Assembly (NCBI GenBank): GCA_946409635.1
Contig: CAMJXD010000003.1
Location: forward strand, 1-64,000
Source: an uncultured Prevotellaceae bacterium
Lineage (GTDB): Bacteria > Bacteroidota > Bacteroidia > Bacteroidales > Muribaculaceae
Length of the DNA: 64,000 nt
Direction: 5' to 3'
Position numbers and translations under genes: made by a program. Positions 46,842 through 48,416 of the stretch are shown here, one piece after another; the stretch's first letter is position 1, and every line of letters starts with the position of its first letter. The notes below the pieces were generated by a model. That model saw only the letters and a program-made list of their open reading frames with translations. It did no database searches and was not told the DNA's origin.

Positions 46842-46872
46842 TTTGTAATATCGCCTGATATTGTTACCTTTG
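46842..46872 (+). promoter_or_regulatory. Promoter of the TIR gene, abutting its start codon
   Basis: TTTG (46842-46845), 19 bp, TACCTTTG (46865-46872): both Bacteroidota elements at ideal spacing. The ATG follows 6 bp later, so the mRNA is predicted to be leaderless. Confidence 0.8.
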
Positions 46873-46878
46873 CACTTG

Positions 46879-48255
46879 ATGGAATATGATATCTTCATCA
46901 GCTATTCAAGGACCGACAGTGCAATCGTCAACACCTTTGTCCAGCAGCTAGAAGCTGCCGACTATAAGGTATGGATTGACCGCGCCGGCGTGTATTCGGG
47001 ATCCCAATTCAAGTCTATGATTGTTAAAGCTATTGAGGATTCCAAGGTCTTTCTCTTCTTCTCTTCCAAGGACGCCAATGCCTCGCCATGGACTGCCAAA
47101 GAGATCGCGATTGCTGCCAACTATCAAAAAACCATCATTCCCATCAAACTGGACAACACACGCTATAACGGTACTGTGGAGTTTGACCTGATCAACCTGG
47201 ATTATGTTGATTACATAAACAAGTCCAATCGTGTTCAAGAATTCGACAAATTAATGCGCACGCTCAAGACGTTATTGGGCAAGATTCAAACACATACTCC
47301 GTTACAGCAACAGCAAACTCAGACTCAATCGCAACCAATAAATACTACAATGAAGTACGATGTGTTCATATCATCAAAAAGCGAAGATTATGGTCTAGCA
47401 GAAAAAGTCTATGATTTCCTTATCGAAAGTGGGCTAGACGTCTTTTTGGCAAGTAGAGAACTCGATCGGCTGGGCGAGTCGGAATATTCTTTAGCAATAG
47501 ATGATGCAATTGATAATGCCACTCATATGATAGTTGTTGCAACTTCAGTCGACAACATTAACTCTAAATGGGTTAAATATGAATGGAACACATTCAGCAA
47601 CGACCTTAAAAGCGGTTATCGCACAGGTAATCTCATCACCATTCATTCTCATGATATTGAACTAAGAAGGCTTCCAGCCAGTCTTAGACATCAGCAGTCT
47701 TTTTGGCTAGATACCTATAAACAACACATTTTGTCATATTTAAAGGATGACAATAGCGTGTTGGCCGCCAAACTTAAAGAGGCACAGAAAGAGATAAAAC
47801 GCCTCGAGGGCATCATTAAAACAAAGGATCATGAAATCATGGAGGCGCAGGATGATAAAAAACGTCTTATGAGTATCATCACATCAAAGAATGACGAAAT
47901 CAAAACACTCAAGAAGAAGCTTAAAGATGCAACTGCCAAAATAAAGGAACCGACAGCAGTTAAAAAAACAATTCAAAAACCTACTGAACAAGAAAAAACA
48001 ACATCTACTCTTTTTGATTTACTTGTAAAAAACGTTAAAAAATCACAAGAAGTAATTGTCCTCATCAAAAAGAATTCAGTAAGAGCCATGAATGATCTAT
48101 CATATGTTCTCTCAAATAATTCGTTATCACTATCCAATGCGCAGATATCTAGTGGTTTATGGCGAATGAAAGTAAAAGACCGTGCTGCTGCACAAAAACT
48201 GATTGCCGAGCTAAGGCAATATCATATACGAGCTGAAATTGAATTGAATCAATAA
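46879..48255 (+). CDS. Double-TIR protein with coiled coil and L7/L12-like C-terminal domain
   Basis: 458 residues. TIR1 (about 1-135): YDIFISYSRTDS, DRAGVYSGSQF, and SPWTAKE with Trp71 and Glu75, the position of the NAD-cleaving glutamate. A Gln/Thr linker follows. TIR2 (about 158-290): YDVFISSKSEDYGLAEKVYDFL and SKWVKYEW with Trp231 and Glu235. A coiled coil runs about 295-355. Residues about 386-458 resemble the ribosomal L7/L12 C-terminal fold (ending DRAAAQKLIAELRQYHIRAEIEL). TIR domains of this kind can hydrolyse NAD or make signalling nucleotides in phage defence; that role is inferred. From about 47340 the DNA is more AT-rich than TIR1. The start at 46879 is fixed by the promoter. Confidence 0.88.
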   Translation: MEYDIFISYSRTDSAIVNTFVQQLEAADYKVWIDRAGVYSGSQFKSMIVKAIEDSKVFLFFSSKDANASPWTAKEIAIAANYQKTIIPIKLDNTRYNGTVEFDLINLDYVDYINKSNRVQEFDKLMRTLKTLLGKIQTHTPLQQQQTQTQSQPINTTMKYDVFISSKSEDYGLAEKVYDFLIESGLDVFLASRELDRLGESEYSLAIDDAIDNATHMIVVATSVDNINSKWVKYEWNTFSNDLKSGYRTGNLITIHSHDIELRRLPASLRHQQSFWLDTYKQHILSYLKDDNSVLAAKLKEAQKEIKRLEGIIKTKDHEIMEAQDDKKRLMSIITSKNDEIKTLKKKLKDATAKIKEPTAVKKTIQKPTEQEKTTSTLFDLLVKNVKKSQEVIVLIKKNSVRAMNDLSYVLSNNSLSLSNAQISSGLWRMKVKDRAAAQKLIAELRQYHIRAEIELNQ

Positions 48256-48303: not shown

Positions 48304-48329
48304 CAGCCACATTTTTAAGTAACATATAG

Positions 48330-48382
48330 TAACAGTGGACAAATTTGGCTGCTTGCAACCACTTGAAAAAATGCTAAAACTG
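48330..48382 (+). promoter_or_regulatory. SAM-II riboswitch upstream of metK
   Basis: H-type pseudoknot as in SAM-II aptamers. P1 is AGTGG (48334-48338) with CCACT (48359-48363). P2 is TTTGGC (48344-48349) with GCTAAA (48373-48378). The conserved TTGCAA stands before the 3' strand of P1, and the A-rich joining segment and GCTAAAA follow. SAM-II is known upstream of methionine and SAM synthesis genes in Bacteroidota. High SAM should lower expression. Confidence 0.88.
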
Positions 48383-48416
48383 CGATAATCAATCAATTTT
48401 ATCGGCTTCTTTAGCG

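Follow-up and report, generated by a model that had tools for sequence, protein, structure and literature searches.

What kind of protein is encoded at positions 46879-48255 (+) of the window, by which we mean the whole stretch of 64,000 nucleotides analysed here from an uncultured gut bacterium of the Prevotellaceae (contig CAMJXD010000003.1 of GCA_946409635.1), and how did its parts come together? The gene is an uninterrupted open reading frame (ORF) of 458 amino acids (aa) in the order TIR1-TIR2-coiled coil-C-terminal domain (CTD). An earlier note had read it as a TIR-TIR-coiled-coil protein ending in a module like the ribosomal L7/L12 factor-binding domain; the TIR-TIR-coiled coil part of that layout stands and the L7/L12 module is not confirmed, leaving the interpretation as a whole partly supported. 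The reading we prefer, tentatively and with a little less than even confidence, is that the protein is a TIR effector encoded by a single gene and one of the modular TIR proteins of Bacteroidales, fused from TIR1 and an exchangeable TIR2-coiled coil-CTD unit. The parts to which we refer are as follows:

46879..48255 (+): whole gene, 458 aa, TIR1-TIR2-coiled coil-CTD, from the open frame
47350..48255 (+): unit of exchange (TIR2-coiled coil-CTD), which genome G313 (RUG12435) carries as a stand-alone gene of 301 aa
46879..47253 (+): TIR1, residues 1-125 with E75, the resident TIR of the site, from the TIR_2 match, the alignment of E75 and the TIR1 of genome G319 in the same place
47284..47349 (+): glutamine-rich linker between TIR1 and the start codon (ATG) of the TIR2 unit, from the translation; alignment found no homology to G313
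47350..47751 (+): TIR2, residues 158-291 with E235, from the TIR_2 match, alignments and substitution rates
47755..47964 (+): coiled coil, residues 293-362, from a heptad test
47965..48036 (+): fast-changing linker, residues 363-386, from substitutions relative to G313
48037..48252 (+): CTD, residues 387-458, predicted beta-alpha-beta-beta-alpha-beta, from AlphaFold2 and VIA-align
46865..46872 (+): promoter-like element TACCTTTG, from the sequence and from alignments, kept in G313 and G319 too

The history of the gene was approached through two relatives. In G313 the TIR2-coiled coil-CTD unit is a protein of its own, encoded in the same place, between an ABC ATPase gene and metK, with a TIR-Sel1 gene 203 base pairs (bp) further on. 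The unit seems, from sequence comparison, to have been swapped between lineages or species as a gene-sized piece, since: 1) its synonymous divergence (pS) between the window and G313 is 0.142, as against 0.484 for metK, 0.479 for the ABC ATPase gene, 0.484 for the NigD-type gene and 0.363 for recA, all four of them nearby genes; and 2) its homology begins at the ATG, or at most some ten bases earlier, and stops at the stop codon. The G+C content is 36.5% in the unit, 44.2% in TIR1, 55.3% in the window and 62.3% in metK, a low value proving nothing by itself. TIR1 is judged to be older at the site than the unit: G319 (locus L146) has a TIR1-Sel1 gene at the same site, whose TIR1 is 72-74% identical to that of the window with a pS of 0.64, no lower than that of the core genes of the same two genomes (ABC ATPase 0.491, NigD-type 0.461, part of metK 0.312). 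G313 has no TIR1 gene but retains the TACCTTTG element and a piece of the beginning of TIR1 that can still be aligned. We conclude from these comparisons that a TIR1 gene resident at the site was joined in frame to an exchangeable gene for TIR2-coiled coil-CTD, giving the present gene. A rival explanation, which we hold to be unlikely, would make this fusion a recent accident, with TIR2-coiled coil-CTD doing the work and TIR1 as passive cargo, or would deny the gene a defence role altogether. It draws on G313, where TIR1 is lost save for a remnant and the unit is intact, and on there being just one TIR1-TIR2 fusion among the 101 genus genomes (no further one was found at E<=1e-8; G193 and G316 gave long matches, but to TIR-Sel1 genes); however, the fusion has an uninterrupted frame, and TIR1 retains both its fold match and its glutamate. 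The 74 TIR ORFs in the loci examined, three of which are copies of the window gene, include only one other tandem, the TIR-TIR-WD40 gene of locus L068.

The place of the fusion is itself variable. The region upstream of metK was examined in 36 of the 38 genus genomes with metK at >=84% identity (G212 not included); 26 of these regions show both the ABC ATPase gene and metK and, with the window and G313, make up the 28 intervals counted, while 10 have no ABC ATPase copy (three of them end at contig ends) and lie outside that count. Thirteen of the 28 intervals are shorter than 400 bp and 15 hold cargo, three of which are TIR genes. The ABC ATPase-metK gap is a chromosomal variable-cargo site, and the comparison marks it as a place where TIR genes are exchanged gene by gene. 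In L132, L135, L138, L150 and L151 the interval before metK holds lipoprotein-like ORFs with repeated DKNDYYY-like motifs, as read by eye. The free-standing gene described earlier is confirmed in the window: the upstream ABC ATPase gene is oppositely oriented, and metK, read in the same direction as our gene, begins 193 bp downstream, preceded by an S-adenosylmethionine (SAM)-II riboswitch at 48329-48387 (+) (RF01726, 61.9 bits, E 8.7e-11) that is strongly alike in G313. On the other side of the gene stands TACCTTTG, which we take to be a Bacteroidales-type -7 promoter-like element; as it ends 6 bases 5' of the ATG (46865-46881), the message may start at or beside the start codon, and the position of this motif suggests a putative leaderless message.

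Both N-terminal domains hold up when tested apart, scoring 85.1 and 44.2 bits against Pfam TIR_2, whose curated cut-off is 28 (TIR2 alone, 47350-47752: E 3.2e-11; whole protein: E 2.1e-35 over two stretches), in agreement with the two TIR domains first noticed. Each contains a WxxxE glutamate, read from the sequence as W71-x3-E75 and W231-x3-E235. In C. elegans tir-1 the counterpart of E75 is the glutamate in the motif WVHKE, presumably the catalytic one; E235 shows no variation in 10/10 aligned rows, and its counterpart E78 is invariant in 10/10 rows of the TIR2 class. The catalytic-type Glu75 and Glu235 of the earlier note are accordingly present, with their catalytic role as our assumption. 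TIR1 and TIR2 are assigned to different TIR classes, and TIR2 is under strong constraint, its ratio of nonsynonymous to synonymous divergence (pN/pS) relative to G313 being 0.08. The proposed coiled coil also finds support: residues 293-362 have 60% ILVMF at a/d positions in the best register, a value reached by 5/5000 shuffles. The linker that follows (residues 363-386) differs from G313 by 18 nonsynonymous and 2 synonymous changes. A second TIR gene of the same orientation lies no more than 500 bp away in 5/12 TIR2-class loci, as against 3/22 other TIR loci (Fisher p 0.098, with unequal flank lengths and some contigs ending early); that TIR2-class genes pair with another TIR gene is hence suggestive only. 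The phage protein family phrog_15646, of unknown function, matches residues 119-245 of P0001 (E 1.9e-19, three stretches), from which a TIR-like family may occur in phages or prophages.

The identity of the CTD proved the most contested point. An AlphaFold2 model (pLDDT, the predicted local distance difference test score, of 84.2) predicts a beta-alpha-beta-beta-alpha-beta order, a second fold prediction agrees with it in topology, and structure comparison places the predicted fold nearest to ACT/PII-type regulatory domains among the 50 matches listed. We therefore describe the CTD as a small domain of predicted ferredoxin-like (ACT/PII-type) fold. The ACT/PII-type domains BT0572, TM1266 and GlnK are without significant sequence relation to it, and Pfam searches with residues 373-458 gave two matches below cut-off, ACT_4 (E 0.043; 14.9 bits as against a cut-off of 27) and RRM_9 (E 0.08); in a profile search of PDB the best match to the CTD was the hnRNP L RNA-recognition domain, at E 0.19. 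Candidate identities were compared by scoring the CTD core, with 5000 shuffles of itself, against profiles built from 19 L12, 30 ACT, 43 ArgR and 14 ClpS relatives. The RelA-type ACT profile gave 1.8 bits (487/5000 shuffles equal or better) and the ClpS profile -0.7 bits (1382/5000).

According to the L7/L12 interpretation, the CTD would be the factor-binding domain and the protein would sense translation GTPases or stalled ribosomes and trigger loss of nicotinamide adenine dinucleotide (NAD). Bacteroidetes conflict proteins with L12/ClpS domains are on record (PMC7159879, drawn on in part, as are all the papers cited here). We regard this explanation as very improbable: 1) PF00542 has no match in the CTD at E<=10, and the L7/L12 profile gave 1.9 bits, with 200/5000 shuffles equal or better (2.5 bits and 125 for the G313 copy). 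2) A longer CTD scored -0.7 bits against a nine-sequence L12 profile (529/2000 shuffles). 3) The first strand of L12 would sit in the fast-changing linker. L7/L12 was rejected as the CTD identity on these profile and conservation grounds, and the AlphaFold check of the C-terminal region, with its ferredoxin-like model, did not confirm it; its absence from the 50 matches listed in the structure comparisons counts as no exclusion. In 26 relatives PF00542 matches 21 at E<=0.1, 19 of them above cut-off, and ORFs read by eye at the seven loci below cut-off included none resembling the CTD (at L184 the ORF read was not the matching one).

A second rival, quite improbable in our estimate, derives the CTD from the N-terminal winged helix of ArgR and would make the protein a DNA- or RNA-sensing TIR. 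An ungapped match of ~33-35% over 43-52 residues joins the CTD to ArgR of the same genus, the ArgR N-terminal profile gave 24.6 bits with 0/5000 shuffles as good, and the sole NCBIfam match of the CTD is the arginine repressor (E 0.1). However, ArgR was chosen post hoc, as the best match of ~400 genomes (best per-genome E ~1.5e-4), so that its shuffle test is unfair; moreover, no arginine-repressor family is among the Pfam matches, and the fold is predicted not to be a helix-turn-helix, with a strand in place of the first helix of ArgR. The ungapped likeness of the CTD (residues 387-458, 48037-48252) to the helix-turn-helix of ArgR is left unexplained, the predicted fold being different.

A high-identity CTD occurs in 2/397 family genomes, namely G313 and the genome from which the window comes. 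Searches gave matches in 25/397 family and 23/101 genus genomes, all weak except for these two, and all 43 weak-match loci carry an ORF recognised by the ArgR profile. The order-wide search returned 12/393, namely the gene itself and 11 scattered matches (E 3.2e-4 to 8.2e-3). No CTD homologue was found in IMG/VR, nor at E<=1 among plasmids, and the whole protein as query had one match in phage records, to TIR1, at 29.8%.

Several known systems offer comparisons. SpbK of Bacillus subtilis is described, in the part of the report used, as a TIR antiphage NADase activated by TIR clustering (PMC12847820). It has in common with the window protein a TIR of the NADase-defence kind within one protein, the NADase activity being predicted in our case; it has one TIR and its own sensor for the phage portal protein, whereas the window protein has two TIRs, a coiled coil and the CTD, and the PADLOC spbK match is weak (E 0.0034). 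Modular Bacteroidales TIR proteins likewise join an N-terminal TIR_2 domain to an exchangeable C-terminal part (Sel1, WD40, response-regulator or transmembrane), and TIR1 of the window recurs in the TIR-Sel1 gene of G319; unlike them, the window protein has a second TIR of another class and its rare CTD. A further comparison is the L068 gene (a Prevotella sp. metagenome-assembled genome), with N-terminal tandem TIRs as in the window and beside a TIR2-class gene; it differs in that a WD40 propeller replaces the coiled coil and CTD and in that both its TIRs get their higher scores from the TIR1 profile. Gut bacterial TIR NADases have already been studied (PMC9092222) and tandem TIRs are described in an amoeba protein (PMC13142454), at least in the portions of these papers available. 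A search of the open-access literature, mostly at the level of listings, turned up no bacterial protein of the order TIR-TIR-coiled coil-CTD, in line with the earlier note, to whose author no named defence system with it was known. Many Bacteroidales TIRs have exchangeable C-terminal modules; within the scope of that search, this order seems to be new.

Profiles of Thoeris ThsB and type III ThcB4 also recognise the TIR domains, and this bears on a distinctly unlikely third rival, in which the TIRs would be signal makers of the Thoeris kind, their cyclic ADP-ribose activating an effector encoded elsewhere. The ThsB matches, though distant, reach E 1.2e-12, and enzymes of this class can make such signals, as far as the part of PMC13232231 used goes. 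Against it, ThcB4 (NF058526) scores 55.9 bits with a cut-off of 220, the bacterium's own genome (84% complete) showed no match to the STALD domain (PF18185) of a ThsA-type partner at E<=0.1, and 0/7 neighbours tested look like an effector.

Returning to the single-gene effector, the coiled coil and CTD would oligomerise the protein, and the CTD would read a ligand or phage-made cue and thereby pack the TIR domains against one another. In that state they might hydrolyse NAD+ or, alternatively, form a cyclic ADP-ribose, either of which would stop the infected cell; the step from clustering to NAD+ cleavage is proposed because it is established for SpbK (PMC12847820, in part). As the unit stands alone in G313, TIR2-coiled coil-CTD is probably the complete core, with TIR2 as the core enzyme, and TIR1 may be a second catalytic or an assembly partner. 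An antiphage function is inferred from the family and the site. A bolder version, unlikely in our view, is a hitherto undescribed single-chain defence protein in which the two TIR classes would work as a mixed pair and a small ferredoxin/ACT-like sensor, carried on the tip of the coiled coil, would gate them; here the mobile core would recruit a neighbouring TIR gene, either in trans (RUG12435) or by fusion (window). The two genomes form a natural experiment, as both have the TIR-coiled coil-sensor core but just one has a second TIR fused to it, and make it testable whether mixed TIR pairs alter the product, threshold or spectrum of immunity.

Two further TIR2-class loci may be mentioned. At L068:1-16519 a TIR2-class gene (TIR with two response-regulator receiver domains) adjoins the TIR-TIR-WD40 gene, and sigma-factor-like and AAA-like ORFs were seen by eye; the stretch looks like a large conflict locus. 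At L219:2-1902 a TIR2-class gene directly adjoins a gene for DUF4062, in which a 2026 report, in the part used, sees a defence family of TIR-like NADases (PMC13174449).
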